From: Opitutus sp.
GTDB taxonomy: Bacteria; Verrucomicrobiota; Verrucomicrobiia; Opitutales; Opitutaceae
Direction of reading: 5' to 3'
Length of the DNA: 64,000 bases
Assembly: GCA_024998815.1 (NCBI GenBank)
Contig: JACEUQ010000001.1
Coordinates: forward strand, 1-64,000
Below, in pieces: positions 20,890 through 51,364 of this stretch. A program made the position numbers and the translations under genes. The number at the start of each line of letters is the position of its first letter. The first letter of the stretch is position 1. Under the pieces are notes generated by a model, which worked only from the letters and a program-made list of their open reading frames with translations, did no database searches and was not told where the DNA came from.

Positions 20890-21582
20890 TTAGAATCCAA
20901 GGGTAACCAGCGTCCACTCCTGCTGCCGATGGAAGGAGAGTTTCTTGTGTAGTGAGGTCGAGTAAAGCTCCTGGGTCATACCATCCGCCGTTCGTGTGTA
21001 GTCGTAGCGGGAAAATGAAGCGAGCAGCTGCGATCCGGGTTGGATCGAATTCTCTGAAATCGCGTCTAAAGGGATTTCTGCAAAAACCTCCCACCGTTCA
21101 TTCGGACGGTCGATGCGAACGACACTTTTGAGGGGCACGGTGACGGGTTTAGAGCGAATGATCTCGCCCTCTTGCGCTTCCGCCAAGTTCTTCGGAAACC
21201 GAGCTTGGTAATGTTGGTTGGACGGTGAGATGTGCAACTCGTAATAGGCGGCCTGTGAAACCGGACGAAGGAAAATCTCAAATACATCGCCTTTGAGGTA
21301 GGCGGGTTCGTTGAACTCTGTCACTGGGTTGAAAATATCCCGGTCGGGCAGCGTGGCGTGAATCAAAAGACTTTCCCCATTCCAGGCCAGGCGCACGTTG
21401 CCTCCTATGAGGTCAGAATGCGTCTTCCACGCCTGCCGCATGATCAAGACGGGCTCGTCACCTGGCGGGCGGTCCATCCAGTCCGTCAAACAACAGTCCT
21501 CGGTATTTGGGCAGTGCAGATGCTTTTCCATGGGAGCAACCGGATCACATCCTCCGGCTTGGGTTGTTTGAGAATCAGACAT
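20890..21582 (-). CDS. CBM9-like carbohydrate-binding domain protein
   Basis: 230 residues. A single CBM9-like (DOMON-related) beta-sandwich spans most of it: VRLAWNGESLLIHATLPDRDIFNP, GDVFEIFLRPVSQAAYYELHISPSN and RWEVFAEIPLDAI are the typical strands. No signal peptide is visible, so it may act inside the cell or be the displaced ancillary domain of a larger enzyme. It overlaps the FAD oxidoreductase gene by 8 bp and is the last intact gene of the long operon. A role in binding a glycan product is inferred from the fold. Confidence 0.75.
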   Translation of the reverse strand: MSDSQTTQAGGCDPVAPMEKHLHCPNTEDCCLTDWMDRPPGDEPVLIMRQAWKTHSDLIGGNVRLAWNGESLLIHATLPDRDIFNPVTEFNEPAYLKGDVFEIFLRPVSQAAYYELHISPSNQHYQARFPKNLAEAQEGEIIRSKPVTVPLKSVVRIDRPNERWEVFAEIPLDAISENSIQPGSQLLASFSRYDYTRTADGMTQELYSTSLHKKLSFHRQQEWTLVTLGF

Positions 21583-23062
21583 AAAGAGGTTTTTCTACGC
21601 TTTGGGCCTGCGAATTAATCAGACGTTCTGTTTCAACGATAGGGCGGGGCCATTCGAGTTCGACATGTTCCTTGCGGAGGCAGCGCCGCAGCTCGCTAGC
21701 GGGCACTTCGCGCAACGATAAGGATTTTTCCTTGGCCAGCGCGCAGGCTGTTCCGGCGGCGTGGCCTAGTGCCATCATCGTGCGGGAGAGCCGGCAACTC
21801 GAGGCGGCGATGGAGCTGAAACTCGCACCGCGACAGGCGACGAGAAGGTTGTTGATTCCCTTGGGCAGCAGGCAGCGGTAGGGAACGCCGTAGGGTTCCT
21901 TTAACTCCACACATCCCCCACTATCGCCGTGACGATCCAGTGCGTGGTCGGCGATCGTGATAATGTCCGGATGCTCCTGCCGGCTGAGTCCGGCCATCAG
22001 GTCATACTGGGTCAAAACGTATTCTCCCACCACGCGCACGGTCTCGCGAACGCCCAGCGCCGGCGCGATCCAGGAGATCGTGTAACGCTGGAACTCGGGA
22101 AAATCCGGGCGCGTCTGGAGGTAATGCCAGTGGGCGAGCACGCGGCGGCGGCACTCGGTGTAAGCCGCAGGGTAACCGAGCCGCAGAAACTCCTCGCCCT
22201 GCATCGTCGGCAGCATGTTGATATTCAGGTCACCGTTCGGGTAGGAGGAATTGAGGGAAGCAGGGAAACGGGCCTGCCACCAGCAGTCCGAAGGAACATC
22301 CGGCGGCAGCGGATCAATCGCTACCTCATCGCGGGGCTTGACCCGATAGATGAGAGTCACGGCATTCACCTTAGAAGAGGGTTGTTCCGGCGCGTCAGGC
22401 TCGCCAAAGGCCTCCCGTCCTTCCTGGCCACGCATCAGTGTGCAGCCAGCGGCCTGACAGAGCTTGGCGTCGGCGGTGCCATCGACGTAAAACGAAGCCT
22501 TCACCACGTCTCCGTTGTCCAGCACGAGACTCGTGATACGACCTTCCTGCACGCACACATCGCGAAAGGCGGTTTCCATGAGAATTGTGCAGTTGCCCGT
22601 TTCCGCGAGCATTTCGCCCACAACACTTGAGTAGGCATGTGGCTCAAACACTACGGCCCGGAACAGAGTCTGCGGGCCAAATTTTTCTAGTAACGAAAGT
22701 TCCTTGAGCGAGTGCCTCTGCAAAGAATCGGCGTAGCGGGCGAGAGGATCAGGCAAAACCTCGCCTCCCGGATAAGCTGGCTTGCCGGGTGCCGGCGCGC
22801 AGCAATGGCGACCCATTTTAGTGATCGTCACCGCTCCCGGAATCGCACGCAGACGGCGGTAAATCTCATACGGAAAATCCGTCCCGCCCACCCCCGGCTC
22901 CCAATTGTGAACCCCGCCCCGGACAGCGTTGCCGCCGAGCGTGTCTGACTTCTCCACCAGTAAAACCGACAAGCCCGCTCGGGCTCCGGCCAGCGCAGCT
23001 CCAATGCCCCCGCTGCCAGCGCCAACCACGCAGAGATCGTAATGAGATTTGGACATGTGCAA
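21575..23062 (-). CDS. FAD-dependent oxidoreductase (FAD_oxidored family)
   Basis: 495 residues. The N-terminal Rossmann motif is YDLCVVGAGSGGIGAALAGARAGLSVLLVEK, followed by LGGNAVRGGVHNWEPG and VDGTADAKLCQAAGC, typical of PF12831 flavoproteins, which are common in Verrucomicrobia and Planctomycetes sugar clusters but have no firm substrate. The C-terminus has CRGASFSSIAASSCRLSRTMMALGHAAGTA, the FAD-closing segment. Codon 3 (ATG at 23056) is an alternative start. It lies 5 bp after the SDR stop. Probably oxidises a sugar or glycoside; this is inference. Confidence 0.86.
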   Translation of the reverse strand: MHMSKSHYDLCVVGAGSGGIGAALAGARAGLSVLLVEKSDTLGGNAVRGGVHNWEPGVGGTDFPYEIYRRLRAIPGAVTITKMGRHCCAPAPGKPAYPGGEVLPDPLARYADSLQRHSLKELSLLEKFGPQTLFRAVVFEPHAYSSVVGEMLAETGNCTILMETAFRDVCVQEGRITSLVLDNGDVVKASFYVDGTADAKLCQAAGCTLMRGQEGREAFGEPDAPEQPSSKVNAVTLIYRVKPRDEVAIDPLPPDVPSDCWWQARFPASLNSSYPNGDLNINMLPTMQGEEFLRLGYPAAYTECRRRVLAHWHYLQTRPDFPEFQRYTISWIAPALGVRETVRVVGEYVLTQYDLMAGLSRQEHPDIITIADHALDRHGDSGGCVELKEPYGVPYRCLLPKGINNLLVACRGASFSSIAASSCRLSRTMMALGHAAGTACALAKEKSLSLREVPASELRRCLRKEHVELEWPRPIVETERLINSQAQSVEKPLYV

Positions 23063-23067
23063 ATGGA

Positions 23068-23802
23068 TCAGAGCGGCATGATTTCCTGCACGGTCGGAAC
23101 CACCGTGAGCTCGAGGATGCCCAAGTGGGCGGGCGTCTCGACGATGTCGGCCACGATTTTACCGAGTTCCAGCGGATGGGTGCATTTGGCGCGCACGGCG
23201 GGATCCATCGCCGGGTGTCCGCCGATGCCTGAGACATCGCAGAAATCCGTGGCACCCCAGGAAGGAGTAAGCGTCGTGACGCGCACGCCGCTCGTCCGCA
23301 CTTCGAGATAGAGCCCCTTGCTGAAACGCTCCACCCCGGCCTTGGCGGCGGAGTAGATCGACCAGCCCGGCCAGGAGTATTTCGCGCAGACGCTGGAGAT
23401 ATTGACGATGGTTCCCGAGCCTTGAGCGGACATCACGGCAGACACGCGGCGACTACCAAGAATCACGCTGGTGAGATTCAGGCTCAGCGTTTGGACGATC
23501 TCCTCGTCGGTCAGTTCCGCCGTCGGGGCGATGCGCCCGGCGGCCCCGGCATTATTGACCAGCGCGTCGATGCGGCCAGCGGCATCGAGCACGGTCTTGA
23601 TGACGCGATCCCAATCGGCGGAGTTGGTGGCATCCGCGACAATGGCGGTAGCGCCGATACGCGATGCGACCTCCTCAAGTTTCTTTCCGTTTCGGGCGGT
23701 GATCCAGACGCGATAGCCGCGCTGAGTGAAGGTTTCGGCGATCCCGGCTCCGTAGCCGCCAGAGGCGCCCGTGATGATGACGGTGGGTTGTGTGTTTTTC
23801 AT
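23068..23802 (-). CDS. Short-chain dehydrogenase/reductase (SDR)
   Basis: 244 residues, classical SDR size. Cofactor motif TGASGGYGAGIA (residues 11-22), NNAG (about 88-91), catalytic Ser in VNISSV and YSAAK near residue 151-155. It should use NAD(P)H to interconvert a hydroxyl and a carbonyl. It sits between a TIM-barrel isomerase and a flavoprotein in the catabolic operon, consistent with handling an oxidised sugar, but the substrate cannot be read from the sequence. Confidence 0.92.
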   Translation of the reverse strand: MKNTQPTVIITGASGGYGAGIAETFTQRGYRVWITARNGKKLEEVASRIGATAIVADATNSADWDRVIKTVLDAAGRIDALVNNAGAAGRIAPTAELTDEEIVQTLSLNLTSVILGSRRVSAVMSAQGSGTIVNISSVCAKYSWPGWSIYSAAKAGVERFSKGLYLEVRTSGVRVTTLTPSWGATDFCDVSGIGGHPAMDPAVRAKCTHPLELGKIVADIVETPAHLGILELTVVPTVQEIMPL

Positions 23803-23830
23803 GAATTCTATTTTTGATTAGGGTTTAAGA

Positions 23831-24595
23831 TTAATTGGCTATCAGAAGCTCGCGCAAAACAACGGCGTCATCGATCAAGGCTGCCGGATCATCGTTGGGG
23901 ACGAATTCCAGAAGAATATCCGGGTCGCAGCCAGACGAACGGAGTGTAGCAATGTAGGCAGCCCAGCGAACTGAACCTTCACGCAGTGGAAGACGGTGCG
24001 AAGGATCCGGCCACCAGTGGAATGCATGCACATGATGGAGCCGCGGAGCCAGAAGGCGAAGGCTGGAAAGACATTCGTCAAGCGGACGTCCGTGCGGAGG
24101 CTGCCAAAGGGTTTTGATGAATGGATGCTGCGTTTCAGCAAGCAGATCGCAGGCGGATTCGACCGTGTCCGTGAGCGTGCCGCCGTGAAATTCGTAGCAA
24201 ATGCGAATACCCTCCGCCGCAGCGAGATCAGCGCAGCGCAAGGCGTCGTCAATGACTCGCCCGCGCCAGTTTGCATCAGCGTCCGCCGATCCCCGGGTTC
24301 CCGCCCAGACCCGGATCGCCTTGGTGTCCAGTGCAACGGCAGAGGCGAGGACACTGGAAAAGGGGAGTCCCTGATGGGGGCTTACCGCCAATCGATAATA
24401 GGAACCGTAGGCTGCCGAAATAAGATTATTCTGACGCATCAGTTCCCGAATTTCTGCGGCAGCAGTTTGATCACCATGGGGGATATGCACATCCCCTCCC
24501 CACTCGATGGCCTTGAGTTGGTTTTCCCGGCAAAGTGAGACGATCTGTCTTGGGGACAGCTTGCGAAAAGTGATTGAGACGAGTCCTGGCAACAT
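23831..24595 (-). CDS. Sugar phosphate isomerase/epimerase-like TIM-barrel protein
   Basis: 254 residues of the AP-endonuclease-2/xylose-isomerase-like barrel. Features include ITFRKLSPRQIVSLC, AIEWGGDVHIPHGD, AYGSYYRLAVSP, RVWAG, CYEFHGGTLTDT (metal Glu/His) and HVHAFHWWPD (metal His). Members isomerise or epimerise sugars or inositols, and some act on 3-keto sugars. It lies 14 bp after the hydroxyacid dehydrogenase gene and 28 bp before the SDR, so the three probably handle one pathway intermediate. Confidence 0.85.
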   Translation of the reverse strand: MLPGLVSITFRKLSPRQIVSLCRENQLKAIEWGGDVHIPHGDQTAAAEIRELMRQNNLISAAYGSYYRLAVSPHQGLPFSSVLASAVALDTKAIRVWAGTRGSADADANWRGRVIDDALRCADLAAAEGIRICYEFHGGTLTDTVESACDLLAETQHPFIKTLWQPPHGRPLDECLSSLRLLAPRLHHVHAFHWWPDPSHRLPLREGSVRWAAYIATLRSSGCDPDILLEFVPNDDPAALIDDAVVLRELLIAN

Positions 24596-24609
24596 GATCG
24601 GAGAAAAGT

Positions 24610-25608
24610 TTAGGCCATGCGGGCAAGCATCTCCTCGGAGACGGCATGGCGGAGAGGTTGGCCTGCGAGATAGAGTGCGAGTTCGTCTTTCATCCAGAAT
24701 CCCATGCGTGCTATCTCGCCGCCGATGCTTCCCGCGATGTGCGGCGTGAGAACGACATTGGGCAATGTTCTCAAGGGTGAGTCTGGAAGGGGTGGTTCGG
24801 GGTAAGTTACATCGAGAATCGCCGTGAGATCGGTGCGCTCGGCGAGGACGTCGCAGAGATCGCGCTCATCGATCAAAGCCCCACGCGAGGTGTTGATGAT
24901 CGCCGCCCGGGCAGGCATCGAACGGAGCAAGGCAGCGTTGATCATTTTTTCAGTCTCCGGCAACCAAGGCGCGTGCAGGCTCACCACATGGCTTTGTGCA
25001 AAAAGTTCCTCCAAGGAAACCAATGTAACGCCAAACGAAGCGGCGGTGGCCGCACTCACAATCGGATCGTAGGCGAGGACTTTGACTTCGTGTTTTGCCA
25101 GATGGCCGGCAACGAGTTTTCCGATGGCACCAAGGGAAACCAGCCCGACCGTGGAACGGAATGCGCCGGGCAGAAAAAACTGCTGATGTCGAAAGTGTCC
25201 CTCCCGCGAGATGCGCTGGCTGATCCAGAATCCTTTCAGGCCGAGCAGAATGGTGGAGAGTGCGTATTCCGCCACTGGAATGGCGTTGGCCTGCCAGGCG
25301 CTGGAAATCACGATTCCCCGCTTGTAGGCCTCCGGCGTGGCGAATCCCTTCACCGAGCCTGCGGCATAAAACACCGCCCGCAAACGGGGCGCCGCCGCGA
25401 GAAATTCCCCATCCAGCTTGGGCATTCCCCACGTGGCAAAGATCACGTCCGCCTCAGCAAGCGCCGCCGTGTGCATTTTCCATTTGGCGCCCTCGATAGG
25501 TTCAGGGAGTAGGTGAACAAGTTTGCCAATCGCGACGCGGAGGTCGTCGGGATAAGCAAGCGGCAGATAGCCAGGAATTCCCAGCAGAAGAGCAGTTGGT
25601 GAAGTCAT
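24610..25608 (-). CDS. D-2-hydroxyacid dehydrogenase family protein
   Basis: 332 residues if started at ATG 25608 (MTSPTALLLGIPGY). Earlier starts add residues unlike the family and overlap the heparinase-like gene. The NAD-binding domain carries VGLVSLGAIGKLVA (about residues 155-170); catalytic residues appear as INTSRG (Arg), DVTYPEPP (Glu) and VLTPHIAGS (His). It oxidises or reduces a 2-hydroxyacid with NAD. The domain KGFATPEAYKRGI, SSAWQANAIPVAEYAL is also standard. Its acid could derive from an oxidised sugar of this operon; that is a guess. Confidence 0.87.
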   Translation of the reverse strand: MTSPTALLLGIPGYLPLAYPDDLRVAIGKLVHLLPEPIEGAKWKMHTAALAEADVIFATWGMPKLDGEFLAAAPRLRAVFYAAGSVKGFATPEAYKRGIVISSAWQANAIPVAEYALSTILLGLKGFWISQRISREGHFRHQQFFLPGAFRSTVGLVSLGAIGKLVAGHLAKHEVKVLAYDPIVSAATAASFGVTLVSLEELFAQSHVVSLHAPWLPETEKMINAALLRSMPARAAIINTSRGALIDERDLCDVLAERTDLTAILDVTYPEPPLPDSPLRTLPNVVLTPHIAGSIGGEIARMGFWMKDELALYLAGQPLRHAVSEEMLARMA

Positions 25609-25654: not shown

Positions 25655-28132
25655 TCAATTGAGGGGCTCCAGGTGGATCTTCGTCTCAAGCTTTCCGGTC
25701 GGGGCGTTGTTACGAAAGCGGATGGTGGAAAGGTCCCTCGTGCCGAGCATGCGGCTTGGAATTATTTCAACGGTTGTGCCAGCAGGCGGTGTGATGAGCG
25801 CGCGACCTCGTGCTCCGTTGATGATGACTTGGCCATTTTCATTTGTGACGGTCAGGGGCGTGTGCCAGAGGAACTCGACACCATCGGCTTTGTTCAGTTC
25901 GTAATCATCCGTGATGGTGATTTCGCTCGCAGATGGAGAAGTGAAAGTGCGTTTCCATGATTTGTAAAAACTGGGCCAGAGGACGCCAGAGTTGATCGTG
26001 GCGTTGAAGGCGGTGGCATCGCCGGTGGCTTCGGGAATGACGGCGACACGTGCCGGGTTGCTGGCGCCTGGGCGGTTGCCGGTTTTGACCACGGGAACGA
26101 GCATATTGTGGTTCTGCGCGTGCTTCATCGCCTGTGCCGTGGCGTCGGAATAGGTCAAGCCACCCGGATCGGCCGCGAAAGTTTCGCCGGCAAACTCGAG
26201 CACAAAGCTACCGCGATCCTCATGATTGTGTCCCGCTTTGGCCGGTCCACCAACGACGATGAGTTTGCTCAGGAGTTCTCCATTCTTGCGGCAAGAGGCC
26301 GCGATGCCGTTGTGGGGAAGGAGAATGAATGGCTCATAGAATGTGGCCTCCACGCCGGTCAAATCCGGCGATGGCAAGGCCCAGAGATTCATACCCAGGC
26401 GCTGCGAAGGGCTCGTGCCGGCAAGCATTCGCGCAGACGCGCCGCCTGGGCGGATCTTGCTCATGACGCTCAGCACCGAAGGGCTCAACGACGCGAAAGG
26501 ACCTCCCTGGGCGTCGCCAACCAGAACAAGCTTCGTCGGGTCCGCCGTGCTGCGGAGTGCCTCGATGTAATCGTCGGTTTTTCCCAGCAGCGGCGGCAGC
26601 ATCTCGCTATAAAGCTTGCCACGTGCATTGGCATAAATGGCAATCGCCGGAAGAGCTGTTTCGAGGGTGTAGGCCAGATATCCGGAGCCTTCCGGAAAAC
26701 CTCCGTCGGGCAGGAAAATTTTCCCCAGGCTCTCATTCAGTTCCGCAAACGCGAGATCGGTGTAGGGTTCGACGTGCCCCCAGTATGACTGCTTTTCGAG
26801 CAAGGCATAGGCCGCCAGACGTCCCGGTGAAAAGGCGGCGAGCTGGTTGCAGGTGAAAATGTAGGGATATTTCCAGACGTTGTAATTGATGTTTCCCAGG
26901 CCATCCTCGGCCAGACGGCGGACGATCAAGGCTTGCCCGGCGGGAGTGATCCACGATCCCGCCAGATCGAGCGCCACCGAAAGCGCCTCGCAGACTTGGG
27001 ATTGGACGAAACAACGCTGATCCCACGAACCGTCCGGAAACGCCGTGATAAAATCAGCATCCCAATGCGGAATCAGGGCGAGCTGAATGGCCGCCTTGGC
27101 CACCTCACGCAGGCCCTCCTTATCACTGACCAAGGCCGCCTTCTGCGCAGCGTCTAGCAAGCTGATGCTCCCCTTGGTGCCATCCCCCTTGGTTATCGCA
27201 AAGGTCTGGCCTATCCGGTTCGGGCTTTTCGTGCGACGGCCATAGAGGTTTTGATTCGAGGCACCTGAGAGGTGCGGTTCCAGCGTGATGCGAGGTTCCA
27301 CGGCAATCGGTTTGAGTCCCGCTTCTTTGGCTCTTGTCTGCGCCTCTTCAAATCCTACCTTCGAAGCGAGGAGGTTATAGAGTGGTGCCGCGCTGGACGG
27401 CTCGGGTTCCTTGCGCAGGAACACGTCCATGGGTTGCTCGGAAAACCGCTTCCAACGCGCCGCCTCGATTTCTGCGACCTGAGGGTCACGCAGTCCGAGC
27501 CAGAGAACGGAGCCGGACACGGGGCCGTTTTCGGCGGCACCCAGAGATACCTCCACTTTGTTCAGATGCGTCGCCCCCTGCGGAAGGGGAAGAACGAACT
27601 GGTCCGTGAAACCAACCTCGCACACGAACTCCTTGGTGACATTCCCCGCAGGCGTTGTGGCGGTGAGGGTGACCTTGGTTCCTTTCGTAAATCCCGCACT
27701 CAGCACAAGCTGGGAATAAGGAAAAAGATCCACTCCGGCTCCGGCGTAACTGCGCGCGAGCACAGCCCCCTCCCCGGCTGCCTCCGCATTCCAATTCAAC
27801 ACGACCCGCGACCATTGGTGCACCACTTGGAATTTGGGATTGTCTCCGAGAACCTTCCACTTCGGCCATGCACCCAGACTGCGATCCCAGAACGGCTCAA
27901 TGATCGCATCGCCGCCGGACACGGGCACGACCCGGGCATCCGTAGGGCCGGACGGAGTCGGGGATGGAGTTGTTGTAGGAGATGTGGACACGATTGGCGT
28001 TGCGGATGCCTTTGGCTCAACGGGCGGCGCGGAAGGCGCGGGATATCCTTTGCAATCTGCACCTGCAAATGTGAAAGCCAATGCGGCGATAAAGATGGAT
28101 GGATTTAAATGAGAGAGAGCGGATTTAGTCAT
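25655..28132 (-). CDS. Heparinase II/III-like polysaccharide lyase family protein, exported
   Basis: 825 residues. An N-terminal hydrophobic stretch (FIAALAFTFAGA, about residues 14-25) acts as signal or anchor, followed by a Pro/Ser/Thr-rich linker (about 30-66). A beta-sandwich-like region comes next, then an alpha-toroid (about 330-600) and a C-terminal sandwich with the hallmark AGHNHEDRGSFVLEFAGE (about 633-650). Such proteins eliminate uronic-acid-containing glycans, but several have other activities, so the substrate is open. It is the only clear exported depolymerase-like enzyme near the 3' end of the operon. Confidence 0.83.
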   Translation of the reverse strand: MTKSALSHLNPSIFIAALAFTFAGADCKGYPAPSAPPVEPKASATPIVSTSPTTTPSPTPSGPTDARVVPVSGGDAIIEPFWDRSLGAWPKWKVLGDNPKFQVVHQWSRVVLNWNAEAAGEGAVLARSYAGAGVDLFPYSQLVLSAGFTKGTKVTLTATTPAGNVTKEFVCEVGFTDQFVLPLPQGATHLNKVEVSLGAAENGPVSGSVLWLGLRDPQVAEIEAARWKRFSEQPMDVFLRKEPEPSSAAPLYNLLASKVGFEEAQTRAKEAGLKPIAVEPRITLEPHLSGASNQNLYGRRTKSPNRIGQTFAITKGDGTKGSISLLDAAQKAALVSDKEGLREVAKAAIQLALIPHWDADFITAFPDGSWDQRCFVQSQVCEALSVALDLAGSWITPAGQALIVRRLAEDGLGNINYNVWKYPYIFTCNQLAAFSPGRLAAYALLEKQSYWGHVEPYTDLAFAELNESLGKIFLPDGGFPEGSGYLAYTLETALPAIAIYANARGKLYSEMLPPLLGKTDDYIEALRSTADPTKLVLVGDAQGGPFASLSPSVLSVMSKIRPGGASARMLAGTSPSQRLGMNLWALPSPDLTGVEATFYEPFILLPHNGIAASCRKNGELLSKLIVVGGPAKAGHNHEDRGSFVLEFAGETFAADPGGLTYSDATAQAMKHAQNHNMLVPVVKTGNRPGASNPARVAVIPEATGDATAFNATINSGVLWPSFYKSWKRTFTSPSASEITITDDYELNKADGVEFLWHTPLTVTNENGQVIINGARGRALITPPAGTTVEIIPSRMLGTRDLSTIRFRNNAPTGKLETKIHLEPLN

Positions 28133-42512: not shown

Positions 42513-43844
42513 TCATAATGCCTTTGGGCGGATACACTCGAGCGAGTAGGCGTATGCCGCGGGTTGGTTGATGCGGTAAATCTCGTCTTCGATTGCCCGG
42601 ATTCGTGCCAGCATGGCCTGCTCGTTATCGATCTCCTTCAAGTAGGTTCGGGCGAGCAACATGTAGTATGCAGTGCGCTCTGGGGGATCGTCCTTCTGTG
42701 AAAGCATTTTCGCAACGAAGGCATCCAGCCCCTTTTTCACAGCTTCTCTGTCCTTCAGATCTACTCCGACGAGATCTTTCATTTCAACCCGGCGAAGCAT
42801 CCGGATCGTTTTGCCGAGCGAGTGGTGGTCCGCGCAAAGTTTGCCGATCTCCTGCGCGAGGACATTCTGCGGGGTGGCTGGATTTTCGGCCAGATTCACC
42901 CCTTTCTCGAAGGCGCTGTGGGGGTAGGTTCCGACCTCGGTTCCGTTGATTTTGAGCGTGTGCTTGCCCGCAGGCATATTGTGAATCTGCAGCACTTGTT
43001 GGTTCAGGCGCTCGATGAAAGGAACGAGGTTCAATGCCTCCTTGGCGTCTTCGATGAGCGGGAAAGGCAGCGCCATTTCCTTGTTTGAAAATGTGAGCCC
43101 TGTCGGCGTCGGTACAAGATCGGTGATCGCTGCGTTCTTTTGTGCCAAAACCACATTGGCCTTTGCATCCAATGAGATTCGCCACACATCCCGCCCGGCG
43201 TTTGTTTGATCCAAAAACAAATAGGCCATCACTAGGTGCCCGATCGGTCCGGGATGAACGCGGTCATTGCCGACCAAAGTGAAAGACGCATTCGCTTGCT
43301 GGCGAGTGCGGTTGATCTCGTTCATCGAATGCCAGAAATCGACAACCGGGATGTTCCTGGCATTTCCGAATTCCAAGACAAAGTCCCTGCATTTGCCCAA
43401 GGCCGCATTTACTTCGCGCATGCTTTCGTCCGATGATTCCACATGTTCGTCGTAGATGGTCGGGGTGATGAGAATCTGGCTCACTCCCTTTTCTCCAAGT
43501 GCGTCTGATATTCTTTCGATGTTTTGTTTGAATGCATCGATCGCATTCCGTTTCCGGCTTTCGGCATTGTCTGGCACCCTGATGAGAGAGTAAAGATCGC
43601 GGCCCACATCATTCATCCCTGCGCTCAAGGTAACGACAGTGGGGTTGTTTGAAAATACATCCTGATTCAAGCGCCCGAGCATTCCTGCTGCTGAGTCGCC
43701 TGCGATGCCGCAGTTTACGAACCGAAGGCGCATCAGTGGGTGCCTGGTGGCATAATAAAGGAAAATATAGGAATGGTAAGTTCCGCTGTCCGTGATGCTA
43801 TCGCCGACAAGGCAGATCGTGTCGTGGTTTTGAAAAGGCGTCAT
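42513..43844 (-). CDS. SGNH/GDSL-family hydrolase (esterase)
   Basis: 443 residues from ATG 43844; upstream in-frame starts at 43910 run into an intergenic palindrome and are unlikely. SGNH blocks are clear: block I ICLVGDSITDSG (Ser), block II NCGIAGDSAAGM (Gly), block III TLSAGMNDVG (Asn), block V DRVHPGPIGH (Asp and His). A 200-residue C-terminal part (LNQQVLQIHNMPAGKHTLKING) is common in sugar O-acetylesterases of this type. It probably removes acetyl groups from glycan fragments. No signal peptide. Confidence 0.88.
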   Translation of the reverse strand: MTPFQNHDTICLVGDSITDSGTYHSYIFLYYATRHPLMRLRFVNCGIAGDSAAGMLGRLNQDVFSNNPTVVTLSAGMNDVGRDLYSLIRVPDNAESRKRNAIDAFKQNIERISDALGEKGVSQILITPTIYDEHVESSDESMREVNAALGKCRDFVLEFGNARNIPVVDFWHSMNEINRTRQQANASFTLVGNDRVHPGPIGHLVMAYLFLDQTNAGRDVWRISLDAKANVVLAQKNAAITDLVPTPTGLTFSNKEMALPFPLIEDAKEALNLVPFIERLNQQVLQIHNMPAGKHTLKINGTEVGTYPHSAFEKGVNLAENPATPQNVLAQEIGKLCADHHSLGKTIRMLRRVEMKDLVGVDLKDREAVKKGLDAFVAKMLSQKDDPPERTAYYMLLARTYLKEIDNEQAMLARIRAIEDEIYRINQPAAYAYSLECIRPKAL

Positions 43845-43878
43845 TTTGAGTGCTGAGTAATATCGCCAGCTGGATGAA

Positions 43879-43946
43879 TTTAGACTTTGGCCCGATGTAG
43901 ACCCGACCACCGGTCGGGCCTACACCGAGCCAGCCTAAAGTCTAAA
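43879..43946. repeat. 68-bp imperfect palindrome
   Basis: TTTAGACTTT (43879-43888) pairs with AAAGTCTAAA (43937-43946). Inside, TGTAG pairs with CTACA and CCCGACC with GGTCGGG around a 3-base tip. It lies between the SGNH gene start and the remnant that follows the GH13 gene. It resembles a repetitive extragenic palindrome; as an RNA hairpin it could also protect or attenuate the operon transcript. Confidence 0.88.
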
Positions 43947-44262: not shown

Positions 44263-45879
44263 TCAGTTTTTAAAGACACCGTGCGAAATACCCTTCATTT
44301 CGAATTTCACTCCGGTCGTCGTGCGTTGGATGGTGGTGCCCTTTGTGAGCAGTTCGGTAGGCAGGGAGCGCAGGCCCTTGATGGGAATGGTCACACTGAC
44401 CGGTTGGTCTGAGGGGTTAACCGCAACTATGTACGTCTCTTTGCCGAGTTTGCGGCGATAGATAAAAGGGTATTTGTTTTTCTCGGCGAAGAGTGGCTCT
44501 AAATCCCCATCGCCGCCGAGCGCGGGATGCTCGCGGCGCAGTGCCGCAAGTTGGCGGACATGGTTGAGCAAGGAATCGGCATCTTTTTCCTGCGCCTCGA
44601 CGGTCGGGTGGTCCTTGGCGGGATCGATCGGCAGGTAGAGATCCTTGGCCTTGCCTGTTGAGAATCCTGCGTTCTCGCCGGAAGTCCACTGCATCGGAGT
44701 GCGTGAGCCTGTGCGGTTGTAGCCACCTTCCTTGGAGACAAGCCCGCGAACATAGCGCATGCCGATTTCGTCGCCACTGTAAAGATACGGCACGCCGGGC
44801 ATGGTCATGAGGAAGGTGAAGGCGACCTTGAGTTCTTCCATCGTGCGACCTTCGGCGAGGCGCATGATGTCGTGGTTGCCGCTTGGGATCGAAATGTGGC
44901 CCGCACCGCGCGTCTTGCGGTAGTGTTTGAGATAATAATCCAGAAACACACGAATATCGCCTTTGCCCATTTTATCGAAAAAGCTGGGCGGAATATCCTC
45001 AAAAAAACCGAAAAGATCACGCGGGGCCTCGCTGCGGAAGAGCGATGTGTAGGCCGGATCATTGAAGTGAATGAGGAAATCGATGTGGAATCCGGCGGCG
45101 ATGGCGCAGGCTGGATCCGACCACTCGGCAATGAGGACGGCCTCGGGGTATTCGGTGTCATACATGTTGCGCATGTCGGCCCAGAGTTTCATAGTTTCCT
45201 TGAAATCCTTGTCGCCTTTCACCAGCGAGGAGGCCATGTCGACGCGGAAGCCGTCGGCACCGGCATCAAGCCAGTAGCGCATGATCCTTTTCATCTCCTG
45301 ACGCGTGGCAACACAGTCAGGATGGTTCACCGGCAGCTGCCATGGCTGCTTTGGATCAGGCTTGGCGAATCCGTAGTTAAGCGCCGGTTGGAAGTGAAAA
45401 AAATTAGTGATGTATTTGCCCTCGCGCTCGGAATAGCCCGAAATCGCGTTCAAGCCAGCTGCCTTTCCGTTGAAAACTTTGTCGGTCCACACATAGCGGT
45501 TCGTGAACTCGTTCTTCCCGGCCTTGGCAGATGCCTCGAACCACGGGTGCGCGGTGGAAGTGTGCCCTGCCACGAGGTCGAGACAGACGCGCATGCCTCG
45601 CTTATGAGCTTCCTTGAAGAGCCGCTTGAGGTCAGCATTCGTGCCGTATCGGGGTGCGACTTTGTAGAAATCGCTGATGTCGTAGCCTGCATCGCCGAAA
45701 GGCGACTCGAAGCACGGATTCAGCCAGATCGCATCGCATCCGAGCGAACGGATGTAATCGAGCTTGGCAATGACGCCCGGCAGATCGCCGATGCCGTCGC
45801 CGTTAGTGTCGAGAAAGCTCTGCGGATAGACTTCGTAGAAGAAGGCGTTGGCGAGCCAAGAAGGTGTGTTGCTTTTCAT
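44263..45879 (-). CDS. GH13 alpha-glucosidase/oligo-1,6-glucosidase-type enzyme
   Basis: 538 residues. Barrel motifs include FFYEVYPQSFLDTNGDGIGDL, LDLVAGHTS (region I), GFRVDMASS (nucleophile Asp near 213), LIAEWSD (acid/base Glu near 250) and SGNHD (third Asp near 334), then the domain-C beta sheet. No signal peptide. It hydrolyses alpha-glucosidic bonds of short oligosaccharides, or isomerises them. ATG 45879 overlaps the SGNH stop as ATGA. A decayed relative lies at 19250/15674. Confidence 0.9.
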   Translation of the reverse strand: MKSNTPSWLANAFFYEVYPQSFLDTNGDGIGDLPGVIAKLDYIRSLGCDAIWLNPCFESPFGDAGYDISDFYKVAPRYGTNADLKRLFKEAHKRGMRVCLDLVAGHTSTAHPWFEASAKAGKNEFTNRYVWTDKVFNGKAAGLNAISGYSEREGKYITNFFHFQPALNYGFAKPDPKQPWQLPVNHPDCVATRQEMKRIMRYWLDAGADGFRVDMASSLVKGDKDFKETMKLWADMRNMYDTEYPEAVLIAEWSDPACAIAAGFHIDFLIHFNDPAYTSLFRSEAPRDLFGFFEDIPPSFFDKMGKGDIRVFLDYYLKHYRKTRGAGHISIPSGNHDIMRLAEGRTMEELKVAFTFLMTMPGVPYLYSGDEIGMRYVRGLVSKEGGYNRTGSRTPMQWTSGENAGFSTGKAKDLYLPIDPAKDHPTVEAQEKDADSLLNHVRQLAALRREHPALGGDGDLEPLFAEKNKYPFIYRRKLGKETYIVAVNPSDQPVSVTIPIKGLRSLPTELLTKGTTIQRTTTGVKFEMKGISHGVFKN

Positions 45880-47072
45880 TTTATAATTCCGTGGTCGATT
45901 GAAATACCGAACTGCAAGACTCGCACAGCATGGCCGGTGCTGAGTGGATTGTGGCGATCAGCTACACGCAGCTGGGCCGTATGGGGGCCCTCTGGAAGCC
46001 CGTGAGCAAGAACATGGAAAACCGGTCGATGGAAGCGGTGGCAGTAGTTGTCAAAGAGGTCCATTTCGATGAATGCCCCGTCGTCGATCGAAATCTCCAG
46101 TATGCCAGCATCCATTCCGGCGATGGCATTCATAGTGAGCATCGTTCCAACAAATGGCAGTGTCAGTGTTTTACCCGGCGTTGTCGCGGTGAGGACATCG
46201 ACCGGGCCGCTGTAGTTGCAGACCTTTTCGGCGAGCCATTCGTGAACCATAGTCCAGCCTCGCGCGTCCTTCGTACCGATCAGGCGAGCAGCGGCCAAAT
46301 GATCTTCACACAGAGGCGCAGGCAATGGGTGGTATTTGATTTGGAAGGATGGTGAAGCATCCTTCCACGCCGCATTGAGGAATTCTTTGATGCAGCCTGC
46401 ATATTGGTCATCCCCCAAGGGGAGAGGGTGGCAACTGTCGCGGGAAAAATCATTCCAAACAAAAAGTCCGGCATCCAGCCGACGGGTCATTTCCAGCGCG
46501 AGGTTGATGACCGGAATGCCGTAGTGCGCCATGATTCGCTCGTGATGAGTTATCACGAGCGGTTCCTTGCTTTCGCGATAAGCCTGCACCTTCCCCTCGT
46601 TGACTAGGTAGAGAACCAGAATGTCGGTCAAGGGATTCGCCTGTCGTGCTTTGCGGATGATGCCTTCCATCGCCTGCATCCGTTGGTTGTTGAGTCGATA
46701 CTCGGAGGCGTCGTTGACCGCGAACTCGATAAATAACAAATCCACTGAGCCCTTAGCCAAAACATCATCATCAAAACGGAAGACTCCGAACGTGGAGTTC
46801 GTGCCGCCGATTCCCGCATTGATGAATTGGAATTTCGTTTCGGGAAAACGGGTGCACATATCCTCTTCGATCAGTTTGCTCCATCCGTTCATCTGGGTGA
46901 TCGAGCCGCCGAGGAATGCGACGCGTCCGGTCTTTTCCCTAAGGAACTTCGCGCCGCTGTTGGTCAAGCCGCTGCGGAGAATCGCCGTGGGCGCGGAGAG
47001 CGCCGCCTGATCCAGCGCAACGACAGCGTCGTTGGCGTAGATCATTTTGTCTTCGGTGTGGTTCTTGCTCAT
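45876..47072 (-). CDS. SGNH/GDSL-family hydrolase (esterase), second
   Basis: 398 residues. Blocks are RVAFLGGSITQM (Ser), NAGIGGTNS (Gly), EFAVNDASE (Asn) and DSCHPLPLGDD (Asp/His), an arrangement seen in carbohydrate O-acetylesterases. A beta-rich C-terminal domain (TLPFVGTMLTMNAIAGMDAGILEISID) follows. The ATG 47072 overlaps the TGA of a short decayed tail upstream (47069-47072), a trace of a lost translationally coupled gene. It is also coupled to GH13 by ATGA. Confidence 0.88.
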   Translation of the reverse strand: MSKNHTEDKMIYANDAVVALDQAALSAPTAILRSGLTNSGAKFLREKTGRVAFLGGSITQMNGWSKLIEEDMCTRFPETKFQFINAGIGGTNSTFGVFRFDDDVLAKGSVDLLFIEFAVNDASEYRLNNQRMQAMEGIIRKARQANPLTDILVLYLVNEGKVQAYRESKEPLVITHHERIMAHYGIPVINLALEMTRRLDAGLFVWNDFSRDSCHPLPLGDDQYAGCIKEFLNAAWKDASPSFQIKYHPLPAPLCEDHLAAARLIGTKDARGWTMVHEWLAEKVCNYSGPVDVLTATTPGKTLTLPFVGTMLTMNAIAGMDAGILEISIDDGAFIEMDLFDNYCHRFHRPVFHVLAHGLPEGPHTAQLRVADRHNPLSTGHAVRVLQFGISIDHGIIK

Positions 47073-47195
47073 ATCTCAAGCTGATTCAGCATGTGCTCGC
47101 TGCTCACCACGCGACGGGAGCATTGATGTGTTCATGGGAGTTCTTCTGCTTCCAATCCAGGGCGAGCCAGGAGCTTGGATTGAGTGCAACTGAAA
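47069..47195 (-). pseudogene. Short decayed gene tails between GH31 and SGNH genes
   Basis: Minus-strand 47069-47110 reads RVVSSEHMLNQLEI then TGA, similar to the VVSSEHLVL end of the esterase pseudogene at 19305; its TGA overlaps the SGNH ATG. A second frame (about 47195-47118) reads ALDWKQKNSHEHINAPVAW then stop. These look like leftovers of one or two deleted genes, possibly the esterase that precedes GH13 in the decayed copy. Confidence 0.4.
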
Positions 47196-47210
47196 GTATT
47201 CCGGTATTTA

Positions 47211-49517
47211 TCATGCTTCCCCTCCACAAACCACCGGGGGCGCTTCAGTATAATTCTCGTAACCAAACCCTGCCATGTTGACTGCTCGGAAGATGTGCCT
47301 TTCGATCATTCCATCAAAGGAACCTTGGCGCGCATGAACATGAAGTTGGGACGCGGCGTCATGCCAAGTTAGCGGAATAATCGAGTAAGCTCCCGATTCG
47401 TAAGCATAACCCTCGCCTTCGTCCTCATAAAGATCAAATGAGGCATCCGCTCCGGGATAGATCATCAATATCAAGTCATCAGAGATTTTCTCGCCGACGA
47501 ACTGTTGGCACGGACCGAGCGGAATGATCGAACCGGCGCGCACATACAGCGGAATCTTTTCCAGCACCGCATCTGCCTTGATGTGTTGACCGCCTTTCAA
47601 CTTCTTGCCCGTCCAGAAATCATACCAGTCGCAACCCTTCGGGAGATAAACGGAACGAGTCTTATCCTCCATTGCAAGCGGCTTCGAACCGGCTTCATAA
47701 TACATCGGTTCCAGCACCGGACAGACCATCAGTGACGGCCCGAACATGAACTGGTCCTTCAGATCATAGACCTGCGGATCATTCATGAAATCAAAGGCCA
47801 GCGGGCGCACCATTGTGTAGTGTCGTTGGGTGATCCAACCGGCGATTGAATAAATATAGGGTAGCAGGCGATAGCGCAGTTCAATGAAGCGCAGCAGCAC
47901 ATCATAGAACGGAGTGCCGGCTTCGCCAAAGCGCCAGGGCTCCCTTGGGGTGTCGGTTCCATGGCTTCTGAAAAGGGGGAGAAAAGCACCGAATTGGAAC
48001 CAGCGGGTGTAGAGTTCACGGTAGCCAAGGTCCTCGCAGCCGGCCTCATACTCGCCCGACCAGAACCATTGTTCTTTGGTCCGCACAAAGAATGCGCCGA
48101 TATCCATCGTGCTGTATGGGCAACCCGAAGCAGAAAAGTTCAGAAGCGCAGGAATGTGCTGACGCAAGGTTGACCATTTGGCGGACGGGTCGCCCGGCCA
48201 GGTGATCGTGCCATAGCGCTGCTGGCCGGCATAGGCAGAGCGGGTCAAATTCACCACACGCTTGTCGGGAGCCGCGGCGCGTTGGTTTTCATAGATGCCC
48301 TTGGAATGGTAAAGACTGTAGGCATTCACGCGTGCGGCATCCATATGCAGCTTGAACTCGTCCAGATTTCGCTTGGCCCGCTCAGCTGATGATCCGCTCG
48401 TTTCGCCGCTCCAGTCGGCGATGTAGGGCTCGGTGGAATCGCACCACCAGGCATCGAACCCGTGACGATGGATCCCGTCATGGGTCTGCTTCCAGTAGAG
48501 ATCGCGCGCGGCGGGATCAAAGGCGTTATAGACGCTGTGATCGTTGAGCATGCCGCCGGCCGCAATCATTTCGGGGCGGTTGATGGAATCCATCATGTTG
48601 GGCCAGATAGAAATCATGACCTTCATGTCCAGCGCGTGGATTTCATCACAAAGTTGCTTGGGGTCTGGATAACGGGCTGCATCAAAATGCTTTCCTCCCC
48701 ACCCATCTGGCCAGTAGTGCCAATCCTGCACAATCAGGTCGATGGGGATTTTTCGTTCGCGGAATTCTCGCGCCACGGAGACGAGTTCCTCCTGGGTATT
48801 GTAACGCTCTTTGCTCTGGCAGTAACCAAAGAGCCACTTTGGCATCATACCCACCCGTCCCGTCAGTTCGCGGTAACCGGTGATCACTCCGTCGAGTGAT
48901 CCGCCCTGAATGAAGAAGAAATCAATTTCATCAGTGGAGTCATACTCCATGTAACTGCCGGCCTCGTCGTCATGAAATTCAAAGGCGCACTCTTTGTTGA
49001 AGAGGATGCCGTAGCCCTTGGTCGATGTGAGCATCGGCACCGATGCCTTCAAGTTGTGCTGATAGACATACTGCATCTTGCCGCGCAGGCTCAACGCTTC
49101 TTCCTCATGCATGCCTAGGCCGTATAGTGCCTCGGTCTCGTCCCACTCAAAGTAAACTCGCGCCTTCCAATCCCGTCGGATCACTGTCTGCTTTGCAATT
49201 TTTGCCTGAACTCGCTCCCCGTCCACCGTGGCCTTCAAGACCAGTGATTTCGGATCCATCTCCGTTTGGATCACTTCAACAGCTTCAAAAGAAAAGTTCG
49301 AAATACTTAGGAGCGTTCTCCCCTCAGAGGAAAAGACGATTCTTCGCTCAGCATCCTGATCAACTTCCAAAACTGCATCCTGCCCTGCCGCTTGCGGACG
49401 GAGAACCACCATTTCCGAATTCGACTCCGTAGCAAAATCCGTTGGCGTCACCAGGACGCGGACAATCCGATCCGTGTAACGATCAAGACGAAATCTGAGA
49501 TGTTCAATTGAATGCAT
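47211..49517 (-). CDS. GH31 alpha-xylosidase/alpha-glucosidase-type enzyme
   Basis: 768 residues. The N-terminal galactose-mutarotase-like domain is followed by the barrel: IVQDWHYWPDGWGG, FDAWWCDSTEPY with the nucleophile Asp near residue 359, TITWPGDPSAKW with the acid/base Asp near 427, YSTMDIGAFF and LPLFRSHGTDTPREPW. GH31 includes alpha-xylosidases, alpha-glucosidases and others; the long WWCDSTEP form fits a xylosidase-like subgroup but is not decisive. No signal peptide. It lies 2 bp after the FAD oxidoreductase stop. Confidence 0.91.
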   Translation of the reverse strand: MHSIEHLRFRLDRYTDRIVRVLVTPTDFATESNSEMVVLRPQAAGQDAVLEVDQDAERRIVFSSEGRTLLSISNFSFEAVEVIQTEMDPKSLVLKATVDGERVQAKIAKQTVIRRDWKARVYFEWDETEALYGLGMHEEEALSLRGKMQYVYQHNLKASVPMLTSTKGYGILFNKECAFEFHDDEAGSYMEYDSTDEIDFFFIQGGSLDGVITGYRELTGRVGMMPKWLFGYCQSKERYNTQEELVSVAREFRERKIPIDLIVQDWHYWPDGWGGKHFDAARYPDPKQLCDEIHALDMKVMISIWPNMMDSINRPEMIAAGGMLNDHSVYNAFDPAARDLYWKQTHDGIHRHGFDAWWCDSTEPYIADWSGETSGSSAERAKRNLDEFKLHMDAARVNAYSLYHSKGIYENQRAAAPDKRVVNLTRSAYAGQQRYGTITWPGDPSAKWSTLRQHIPALLNFSASGCPYSTMDIGAFFVRTKEQWFWSGEYEAGCEDLGYRELYTRWFQFGAFLPLFRSHGTDTPREPWRFGEAGTPFYDVLLRFIELRYRLLPYIYSIAGWITQRHYTMVRPLAFDFMNDPQVYDLKDQFMFGPSLMVCPVLEPMYYEAGSKPLAMEDKTRSVYLPKGCDWYDFWTGKKLKGGQHIKADAVLEKIPLYVRAGSIIPLGPCQQFVGEKISDDLILMIYPGADASFDLYEDEGEGYAYESGAYSIIPLTWHDAASQLHVHARQGSFDGMIERHIFRAVNMAGFGYENYTEAPPVVCGGEA

Positions 49518-49519
49518 TT

Positions 49520-51364
49520 TTAGTTATAGGCCCGCACCTCGACCACGCGTGCGTGATCGATGCCGTTGGAGGCGAGCACTTCGATACGGATTCGCGCTGT
49601 TGCGACGGCTGCGAAACTGTGGATTCGCTGACGCAGGAAATTCCCCCTCACTTCGGCAAGGGTCACGGGTCCGACGGAAGTCTCGGCGACCAGATTGTAA
49701 TTGCGAATGCTCTCGGGCTGAGGACCCCAGATGTTGCGCGCATGAACGCCATCGCTCTGCGTAAGGGAGAACCAGCGGTGCAGGCCGGTATCAAAGGTGA
49801 GTTGCAGGCGGGACAGTGTGACGGGTTTATCCCACTTCAGCTCCAACCATGCGGGAAGTTTTTCCGACATCCATCGGTGCGTTCCCTCGGGCATCGCTCC
49901 CGGGCGTGTGCCGTGAGGGCCGGTGGTGATGCGCGTGAAACCATCGATGACATTTTGCGGTTCACCGCCTTCGCGATGATCGGATGCCGTGACTTTCGCG
50001 CTGCGTGCGAGATCGAGAGGATCGGCATTCGGCACGCCTATGAGGAAACCATCCTGTCGCAGAATCTCCTGCTGGATTTGCTGAATCAGCTCCTGCGATG
50101 TGCATGCTTCGAAGGTGCCTTTGCCCTGTGCCGCTGCCTTGGCTGCTGCGATGCCAGTGCCTTGGCCCATGGCGAAACAAGTGGCCATCACGCGCGTTGA
50201 GGCGAAGGCAACATGGGTAGCCGAAATGTTGCGTCCGGCAAACCAGAGATTCTCAAGCGTTCCACTGGCACAGCAGGAGAGGGGAAGCGGATACAGATGC
50301 GGCACTTCGATCTGTGTGCATGGGGCCTCCAGAGGCGCATCGACGCCCTTGGGTGGATGCAGATCCATCGGCCAGCCTCCGTAGGCGATGGCATCCGGCG
50401 CATCAGGTGCGTTTAGGACATCCTGCTCGGTCAGCGTCTTGCGGCCGATGAGGCGGCGGGACTCGCGCTTGCCAGGCAGCATGCCGACCCAAGTGAGCAC
50501 CCAGTTTTCCGCGCCGTGTTTGCCACCGTTTTTCAAGTGATCCCAGATTCCGTAGGCGATGGAGAGGAGTTCGTGGCGGATGTGGTCGTTGTCGGCAATC
50601 GTGTCGAGATGCCCGCCCCACTCGAGCCACCAGAATCCATACTCAAAACCGCATTCCTCGCCTCCGGCTGTTTGGCCTAGGCTGTGCGGACGGTTCGCCA
50701 AATCCTCTTCGGTGAACTTTCTTGCCCAAGATGGTGAGGTGAAGGGGACCGGGTGGTCCATCTTCACCGCTTGGAAAAGCACGGTAGATCCGAGGGACCA
50801 GTTGTCGGCTTTCTCCAAGGCATACTGCTCGCCGAACTCCTCGCGGGATTCGCGGCCTCGGCGGAAGCGATTCCCCGCCGCAACGGCCATAGCGGAGTCG
50901 CCGCTCGCATCGATGAACTGAGACGCGGTGATTTTAAATTGTTCTTCGTGCGCCGGGCGGTCTGCATGGATCAAAACGATGCGCCCGCCATCTACCTTTG
51001 CCGCAGACACATGCGTATCTAGAAGAAGCGTGATGTTCGGTTCGCTGCGCACCATATCATAAAGCACGAGATCGATCCCGTGCGGTGAGCGCGCTGGGTT
51101 TTCGCAGGCCTGACGCAGACGGAGTTCCTCGACGAGGCCCGACTCGCGTGCCTCGGTTTGAAGCGGGTACTTGTTGCGGAAACCATTGGCATCCGCGCCT
51201 ACGATGTGCATGCGGATTTCGCTGGAGGCGTTTCCTCCCAGCACAGAACGGTTTTGACAAAGAATGACGGTGGAGCCGGCACGGGCTGCGGCAAGCGCAG
51301 CCGAAACTCCCGCCGCGCCACCACCACACACCAGAATATCCGCGCAAAGGTTTATTGTATTCAT
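49520..51364 (-). CDS. FAD-dependent oxidoreductase with C-terminal F5/8-type (discoidin-like) domain
   Basis: 614 residues. The flavin domain shows DILVCGGGAAGVSAALAAARAG, LGGNASSEIRMHIVGADANG, IDASGDSAMAVAAGNRFRRGRE and LENLWFAGRNISATHVAFASTRVM. From about residue 455 there is a galactose-binding-like beta-sandwich (SAKVTASDHREGGEPQNVIDG, LELKWDKPVTLSRLQLTFD). No signal peptide. It is the largest of three intact FAD_oxidored proteins here and the first complete gene of the operon. ATG 51364 overlaps the stop of a truncated gene as ATGA. The joining of a sugar-binding domain to the flavoprotein supports action on glycans. Confidence 0.88.
   Translation of the reverse strand: MNTINLCADILVCGGGAAGVSAALAAARAGSTVILCQNRSVLGGNASSEIRMHIVGADANGFRNKYPLQTEARESGLVEELRLRQACENPARSPHGIDLVLYDMVRSEPNITLLLDTHVSAAKVDGGRIVLIHADRPAHEEQFKITASQFIDASGDSAMAVAAGNRFRRGRESREEFGEQYALEKADNWSLGSTVLFQAVKMDHPVPFTSPSWARKFTEEDLANRPHSLGQTAGGEECGFEYGFWWLEWGGHLDTIADNDHIRHELLSIAYGIWDHLKNGGKHGAENWVLTWVGMLPGKRESRRLIGRKTLTEQDVLNAPDAPDAIAYGGWPMDLHPPKGVDAPLEAPCTQIEVPHLYPLPLSCCASGTLENLWFAGRNISATHVAFASTRVMATCFAMGQGTGIAAAKAAAQGKGTFEACTSQELIQQIQQEILRQDGFLIGVPNADPLDLARSAKVTASDHREGGEPQNVIDGFTRITTGPHGTRPGAMPEGTHRWMSEKLPAWLELKWDKPVTLSRLQLTFDTGLHRWFSLTQSDGVHARNIWGPQPESIRNYNLVAETSVGPVTLAEVRGNFLRQRIHSFAAVATARIRIEVLASNGIDHARVVEVRAYN

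Follow-up and report, generated by a model that had tools for sequence, protein, structure and literature searches.

Introduction

Mixed glycosidases and esterases stand together in one cluster in the polysaccharide utilisation loci (PUL) of Bacteroidota, as they do in the DNA described here. The ycj-type pathway of E. coli (reportedly Nasseri et al. 2024) is said to follow an idea similar to the one developed below, with oxidation, elimination and reduction carried out by a TIM-barrel gene cluster. PMC10628242 describes a GlycDH-OGE-HYD-Gfo operon of Agrobacterium in which a flavin dehydrogenase, two sugar-phosphate-isomerase-like TIM barrels and a further oxidoreductase lie in one run; PMC10646112, in the part concerned with GMC-type glycoside 3-oxidases and pyranose oxidases with C-deglycosidases, likewise places flavin-dependent glycoside oxidation beside cleavage genes. 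The present work is centred on a run of 18 genes on the minus strand (20890-51364) of a 64,000-nucleotide stretch of Opitutus sp. (assembly GCA_024998815.1, contig JACEUQ010000001.1, positions 1 to 64,000; this whole stretch is called the window), in which glycosidases and esterases are accompanied by a short-chain dehydrogenase/reductase (SDR), a TIM barrel, a 2-hydroxyacid dehydrogenase and three flavoproteins of Pfam family PF12831, here named FAD_A, FAD_B and FAD_C. The reading that we tentatively favour, at a little less than even confidence, is that of a mosaic cluster for glycan or oligosaccharide catabolism, whose flavoproteins would oxidise sugar hydroxyls and in which FAD_A and the SDR would form a redox pair.

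The run differs from the PUL of Bacteroidota in lacking SusC/SusD and in having three flavoproteins and an SDR, and from the E. coli pathway in lacking a Gfo/Idh/MocA protein (none among the 18 run proteins by Pfam, which finds one TIM barrel of the AP_endonuc_2 family). It shares with the Agrobacterium operon, in the form given in PMC10628242, the combination of a (here putative) flavin dehydrogenase, a TIM barrel and a further oxidoreductase, and its TIM barrel has an E-x-H/H/E site similar to that of the C-glycoside eliminases of the operon. Unlike the operon as given there, the window has one TIM barrel and not two, an SDR and not a Gfo protein, Gln in the place of Asp163, and surrounding glycosidases; the likeness to GlycDH is one of description and not of compared sequences. 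In contrast to the GMC-type oxidases of the relevant part of PMC10646112, the window flavoproteins belong to PF12831, and neither FAD_A, FAD_B nor FAD_C matches a GMC family in Pfam at E 1e-3.

Organisation of the gene cluster

The 18 intact genes expected on one strand were recovered by the gene call, with FAD_C as the first gene (51364) and a 230-residue protein as the last (20890). Scores are given in bits, followed where needed by the Pfam cut-off.

20890..21582, minus strand: 230-residue protein, last of the run; CBM9-like at best (PF06452 E 0.04, 14.2 of 23.4 bits, below cut-off)
21575..23056, minus strand: FAD_A, full-length PF12831 flavoprotein (254.9 bits, profile positions 1-416 of 416)
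23068..23802, minus strand: SDR, partner of FAD_A (PF00106, 162 bits)
23831..24595, minus strand: xylose-isomerase-like, AsbF-like TIM barrel (PF01261; AsbF 3dx5 E 8e-9; conserved E-x-H, Q, H, E)
24610..25608, minus strand: D-2-hydroxyacid dehydrogenase (PF02826, 155.8 bits)
25655..28132, minus strand: heparinase-II/III-like protein (PF07940, 34.3 of 24 bits), N-terminus signal-like by eye
28151..30646, minus strand: GH2 of the beta-mannosidase type (PF22666, PF02837 and PF00703 above cut-off, PF17786 below)
30656..31585, minus strand: GH130, nearest to TM1225 and UHGB_MP (PF04041, 134.9 bits)
31599..34646, minus strand: second GH2 (PF02836, PF00703 and others above cut-off)
34668..35765, minus strand: GH43-like protein (PF04616, 27.3 of 32.2 bits, below cut-off)
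35774..38995, minus strand: lipoprotein-like protein with laminin-G and GH123_N-like domains (Pfam)
39054..40337, minus strand: FAD_B, PF12831 flavoprotein with an ATGA overlap with GH36 (330.8 bits, profile positions 1-397 of 416)
40334..42493, minus strand: GH36, alpha-galactosidase-like (PF02065, 103.8 bits; 8k1a, AgaA/B)
42513..43910, minus strand: GDSL/SGNH esterase 1 (PF00657)
44263..45879, minus strand: GH13 (PF00128, 264 bits)
45876..47072, minus strand: GDSL/SGNH esterase 2 (PF13472)
47211..49517, minus strand: GH31 (PF01055, 295.7 bits)
49520..51364, minus strand: FAD_C, PF12831 flavoprotein with a C-terminal beta domain, first of the run (282.6 bits, profile positions 1-404 of 416)

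Read in the order of the list, the intergenic distances are -8, 11, 28, 14, 46, 18, 9, 13, 21, 8, 58, -4, 19, 418, -4, 138 and 2 base pairs (bp). The close spacing described in the sequence-only reading is thus confirmed (-8 to 58 bp) apart from the two gaps that it had named, between GH31 and esterase 2 (138 bp) and between GH13 and esterase 1 (418 bp, or 352 bp with a GTG start of esterase 1). Scans for promoters and terminators gave counts near those of shuffled sequence (9 against 6.3 and 23 against 16.6, respectively) and were not used.

The same reading had listed three intact flavoproteins, an SDR, a TIM-barrel isomerase and a 2-hydroxyacid dehydrogenase, and Pfam finds all of them: the flavoproteins exceed the PF12831 cut-off of 27 bits by a wide margin, are full-length and belong to different subfamilies (25-27% mutual identity). 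Its list of glycosidases and esterases holds for GH2 (two genes), GH13, GH31, GH36, GH130 and two GDSL esterases, and fails for GH43, which stays below the Pfam cut-off. The heparinase-II/III-like gene (25655) and the lipoprotein-like gene (35774) had not been named. The absence of a transporter or SusC/D holds for the 18 run proteins, none of which matches such a family in Pfam at E 1e-3.

FAD_A and its SDR partner

A sample of 387 genomes from the phylum was searched for FAD_A (E 1e-70), which occurs in 27 of them, its own genome included. Of the 26 other loci, several of which end at contig ends, 13 have a homolog of the window SDR (36-61% identity) within about 1.5 kilobases (kb) of FAD_A. 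Relative to FAD_A, the SDR is upstream in four of the 13, downstream in eight and divergent in one. The pair is also present in two relatives outside the phylum sample (L058, L060; L and G numbers denote loci and genomes), and the window SDR used as a query found nothing at E 1e-6 in control loci (398,020 bases, three genomes).

Among the 20 larger FAD_A loci that were fetched, a GH29 alpha-L-fucosidase stands beside FAD_A in three: L151 (7.5e-88), L155 (1e-11) and, by similarity to L155, L154. L157 has an Amidohydro_2 gene close to its SDR-FAD_A pair, as does L159, judged by similarity; the two loci are from the same genus. Other neighbours are a GDSL gene (L147), BNR (L161), DUF4838 (L165), an AXE1-like gene (L148) and Gfo/Idh/MocA genes, one near FAD_A in L166 and one four genes away in L164. 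In L157, a 3-keto-disaccharide-hydrolase gene (9.7e-40) at a distance of about 3 kb from FAD_A was left uncounted because two RNA-modification genes intervene. The codon-scored gene call missed the flavoprotein gene in L054 and L156; in one of the 20 fetched loci, FAD_A was among the genes missed.

Two PF12831 flavoproteins of these loci are enlarged: one is fused in one frame with a right-handed beta-helix domain (L152:4478-7498) and the other carries a 580-residue N-terminal extension (L166:4383-7415). The extra parts of both gave nothing against solved structures, and neither the N-terminal part of the L166 protein nor a 928-residue protein of L162 has a Pfam match.

FAD_C, FAD_B and the alpha-galactosidase

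Out of 34 places listed, 15 FAD_C loci besides that of the window were examined. In four of them GH36 is found between 23 bp and about 7 kb from FAD_C, sharing its strand in L044 and L051 and facing the other way in L040 and L042. Nine genomes hold both FAD_C and GH36 at E 1e-60 (G000, G001, G003, G011, G012, G016, G018, G054 and G055), and the two are linked in four of them (G000, G011, G016, G018); some of the five unlinked genomes are split into many contigs. With FAD_C at 1e-150, a cut chosen afterwards, the link is seen in four of five genomes. By our estimate the link, even at four of nine genomes, is far commoner than position alone would give. In L040 and L042, which come from other genera, FAD_C is flanked by a GH2 and by a homolog (30-32%) of esterase 2, and in L041 it adjoins a heparinase-II/III-like gene.

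The C-terminal domain of FAD_C had been called sugar-binding-like. Support for this is weak: DUF7402 reaches 29.2 bits against a cut-off of 27 with the domain alone and 26.6 bits with the whole protein, and a solved match is a domain of Endo-D (2xqx, E 0.0019), which we take to be a CBM32 (carbohydrate-binding module).

FAD_B overlaps GH36 through ATGA, as stated from the sequence alone, and this coupling is not conserved: GH36 stands beside FAD_B in none of eight other loci, which represent eight of the nine places with FAD_B at 44% identity or more. The congener G011 has an ortholog with 82% identity that adjoins an MFS_2 sugar transporter (L055), followed by a GH2 homolog.

Several observations were made along the way. 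A protein of about 670 residues (55-59% identical) recurs adjacent to or near PF12831 genes in three loci (L044:7881-9899, L051:10588-12588, L093:13024-15030); it has no match in the PDB, and its L044 copy reaches GH127 only below threshold (16.9 of 24.9 bits). In G003, 2-hydroxyacid dehydrogenase genes lie on both sides of GH36 (L073:6580-13785). The congener locus L082 holds three PF12831 genes in about 8 kb (3082-5783 and 9758-11059), the first two slightly overlapping. The family can be abundant: at E 1e-30, FAD_B by itself has 19 matches in G017.

Neighbours of the PF12831 family

The 98 same-strand neighbours of 52 called PF12831 family members or pieces in relatives were compared with 98 control proteins, chosen from the 248 that 20 arbitrary stretches of three genomes contain. 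GDSL_2 (8), LacI (6), GH16 (5), MFS_1 (4), adh_short (4) and GH2 (4) rank with the commonest families near PF12831, and each can occur at most once in the control because it lies outside the 25 commonest families there. If the control held one GDSL_2, its enrichment has a Fisher p of 0.017; AraC regulators are found four times near the family and three times in the control. The tie between these flavoproteins and glycan genes that had been drawn from the window recurs elsewhere, FAD_A with the SDR and in places with GH29, FAD_C in some loci with GH36, GH2 and GDSL genes. The association of PF12831 flavoproteins with glycan genes is recurrent and reaches beyond the window.

Fold and motifs of the flavoproteins

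The model of FAD_B, built with 31 relatives, has a mean pLDDT (predicted local distance difference test) of 92.0 and a pTM (predicted template modelling score) of 0.91. Among its nearest solved folds are the geranylgeranyl-reductase-like 3oz2 (Z 21.6, root-mean-square deviation (rmsd) 3.7, 292 residues aligned), the FixC-type chain 7koe_C (Z 21.4, rmsd 3.8, 298 aligned) and the fumarate reductase flavocytochrome c3 (Z 20.0, rmsd 3.0, 229 aligned). The FAD_C model (pLDDT 79.2, pTM 0.86) matches an Hdr subunit (Z 18.4, rmsd 2.7, 178 aligned). Among the fold matches listed for the flavoprotein models there is no GMC enzyme, which excludes nothing. Run as a profile against the PDB, the FAD_B alignment retrieved 85 sequences at E 1e-6. 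The matches of the best 60 end by profile position 169 of 441; these 60 solved relatives cover the FAD-binding N-terminal part only. No NCBIfam model reaches its cut-off for FAD_A, FAD_B or FAD_C among the matches listed, and Pfam assigns PF12831 no activity.

The alignments of FAD_B and of FAD_C show conserved R-E-x-R-R and D-x-H motifs; any role given to them would be a guess. In some homologs (L088, L090) the sequence begins with RRDFLK, a twin-arginine-like stretch. Such a motif is an export signal, so some PF12831 members may be exported.

The TIM barrel, the 2-hydroxyacid dehydrogenase and the glycosidases

The nearest solved relative of the TIM barrel is AsbF (3dx5). Its E-x-H is kept in all 10 other alignment rows that cover the site and its Q, H and E in all 11; five of the 16 fetched loci gave no row. 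The codon-scored call missed the TIM-barrel gene in L169, L173, L174, L175 and L178. The site of the 3-keto-glycoside eliminases, as set out in PMC10628242, comprises a metal site and a catalytic His, in the order Glu/His, catalytic His two residues on, Asp, His and Glu. In the window TIM barrel, E-x-H, H and E are conserved and Gln stands in the place of Asp. A 2-hydroxyacid dehydrogenase homolog lies about 26 bp from the TIM-barrel relative in L174, which is of another family, and one gene away in L176.

Residues 281-541 of GH36 align to 285-550 of 8k1a and to other solved alpha-galactosidases over the catalytic core, and GH130, homologous over its whole domain, aligns over its catalytic core with solved mannoside phosphorylases (1vkd, UHGB_MP). 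The glycosidases of the run appear to be ordinary hydrolases, with one phosphorylase among them. Since GH36 and GH130 match solved enzymes over their catalytic cores, ordinary cleavage needs no prior oxidation, and the part of the sequence-only reading that sets oxidation in the place of a standard hydrolytic locus finds no support here.

Proposed role and alternatives

In the scheme proposed, sugars would be released or trimmed by conventional glycosidases, the mannoside phosphorylase and the esterases, and the three PF12831 flavoproteins would be flavin dehydrogenases acting on sugar or glycoside hydroxyls. FAD_A and the SDR would work as a redox pair, one of them making a keto-sugar and the other reducing it. 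The outcome would be either redox epimerisation or a route of oxidation, elimination/rehydration and reduction, in which the TIM barrel could be the lyase or hydratase and the 2-hydroxyacid dehydrogenase would handle the resulting 2-keto or 2-hydroxy acid. The gene layout, the domain families, the recurrent FAD_A-SDR and FAD_C-GH36 links, the excess of glycan genes near the family and the conserved TIM-barrel site are observed; that the flavin substrates are sugars is plausible but, like the redox direction and the order of steps, inferred. If PF12831 proteins do oxidise sugars, hydrolase-only annotation has overlooked part of glycan breakdown in these bacteria, and the FAD_A-SDR pair together with the FAD_C-GH36 and FAD_A-GH29 links would offer concrete candidate substrates and partners. 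A wider proposal is that PF12831 forms a third, unrelated class of sugar or glycoside dehydrogenases beside the GMC and Gfo/Idh/MocA enzymes, SDR-partnered and serving redox-assisted glycan breakdown in the phylum, with subfamilies matched to glycosidases (FAD_C to alpha-galactosidase, FAD_A to alpha-L-fucosidase); it must be considered doubtful.

A number of results weigh against sugar oxidation by these proteins. To our knowledge, no PF12831 member has a known activity, and the modelled fold is a generic flavoprotein fold that does not indicate the substrate; the neighbours of FAD_B in structure space, 3oz2 and flavocytochrome c3, act on C=C bonds and not on sugars. Half of the phylum FAD_A loci (13 of 26) have no SDR homolog, the FAD_A-SDR pair of L058 and L059 lies behind an IclR regulator with no adjacent glycosidase homolog seen, and many scanned neighbours of FAD_A have nothing to do with sugars (Obg GTPase, MoxR-type ATPase, peptidase M18, secretin, DNA polymerase, a radical-SAM protein). 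The FAD_B-GH36 coupling had to be rejected as a general rule. In the neighbour statistics, the LacI enrichment is marginal (p 0.06), the four adh_short neighbours are most probably none other than the SDR partners of FAD_A, a single genome (G017) supplies many of the neighbour loci, and the control comes from only three genomes. Finally, the TIM-barrel site is suggestive only, because the E-x-H/H/E layout may be general to the TIM-barrel superfamily and no homolog of FAD_A, FAD_B or FAD_C was called in the 16 TIM-barrel loci.

Some of the folds closest to FAD_B (geranylgeranyl reductase, FixC, flavocytochrome c3 and also urocanate reductase) lend themselves to another explanation, in which the flavoproteins would not be first-step oxidases and would instead act as C=C reductases or alpha,beta-dehydrogenases on unsaturated or keto sugars produced by lyases. 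The heparinase-II/III-like gene of the cluster and the one adjoining FAD_C in L041 agree with it. This fold is, however, common to many reaction types, no electron donor partner was seen, and unsaturated uronates are usually handled without flavins; we regard this explanation as unlikely. A different kind of doubt concerns the part of the substrate on which the flavoproteins act. The cluster could be an ordinary hydrolytic one, as the alignment of GH36 and GH130 with solved enzymes over their catalytic cores would allow, and the flavoproteins could act on an aglycone or a decoration (amine, alcohol or phenol) and not on sugar rings; the GDSL esterases suggest decorated substrates. Nevertheless, the presence of three subfamilies in one cluster and the links with GH29, GH36, GH16 and GH2 fit a role on sugars at least equally well, which leaves the aglycone or decoration improbable as the target.

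It is also conceivable that free sugars are oxidised at C1, by a flavoprotein or by the SDR, to give lactones and acids, in an aldonate-type route whose sugar acids would be substrates of the 2-hydroxyacid dehydrogenase. Several observations point that way: a dehydrogenase of this kind adjoins the TIM barrel both in the window and in L174, two of them flank GH36 in L073, and Amidohydro_2, a family with sugar lactonases among its members, accompanies the SDR-FAD_A pair of L157 and that of L159. Nonetheless, the 18 run proteins include no lactonase or dehydratase family by Pfam, and the Amidohydro_2 link is limited to two of the 20 fetched FAD_A loci, from one genus, so that such a route appears quite unlikely. 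Oxidation of sugar hydroxyls, with FAD_A and the SDR as partners, is the reading that we retain, with the reserve stated in the Introduction.

Probable mosaic origin of the cluster

The 12 other genomes of the genus contain only pieces of the run, and none of their matches covers it whole. The longest piece, in G011, is an SDR-FAD_A block of about 2.2 kb with 77% DNA identity. FAD_B matches at 79%, and parts of GH36, GH13, FAD_C and a few further genes match at 64-78%. In its own genome, GH36 has a paralog (82% DNA identity) beside an FAD_C paralog on contig 2, GH13 one (79%) on contig 3, and FAD_B one (81%) at 14836-15457. The guanine plus cytosine (GC) content of the genes at 42.5-49.5 kb is 0.527-0.560, against 0.571-0.630 in most of the rest of the run and 0.585-0.631 in ten other stretches of the genome; the last gene has 0.538. 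It is probable that separate modules were joined to form the run, because no congener covers it, paralogs and decayed pieces are scattered, and GC content shifts at 42.5-49.5 kb.

The gene remnants that the sequence-only reading had placed in the two gaps were not found in a search limited to proteins called in the fetched loci and in the window, which leaves remnants of other families possible; the best tblastn matches cover 27 and 34 residues at 35-37% identity (E 8e-4 and 1e-4). At the DNA level, too, the 13 genomes of the genus yielded no match to either gap from any other place. True remnants lie outside the run, at 14.5-20.8 kb:

14492..15457, minus strand: truncated FAD_B paralog beside an IS21-type element (81% DNA identity over 622 bp)
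19057..20844, minus strand: remnants recognised by sequence matches, namely GH13-like pieces (19057-19241), an AXE1 esterase piece (19827-20192) and an FAD_B-like piece (20452-20844)

In the open reading frame 14492-15457, homology to FAD_B ends at residue 215 and is followed by a tail of about 114 residues that has no Pfam match.

The region contains several insertion sequences (IS). Two copies, 99.9% identical and in opposite orientation, flank it at 10720-12467 and 59395-61142. A composite transposon was considered and set aside: the genome holds 22 near-full-length copies of this IS, those two included, so their flanking position says little. Upstream of the run, at 52899-58205, there is a gene for a 1768-residue autotransporter with six PATR repeat matches.

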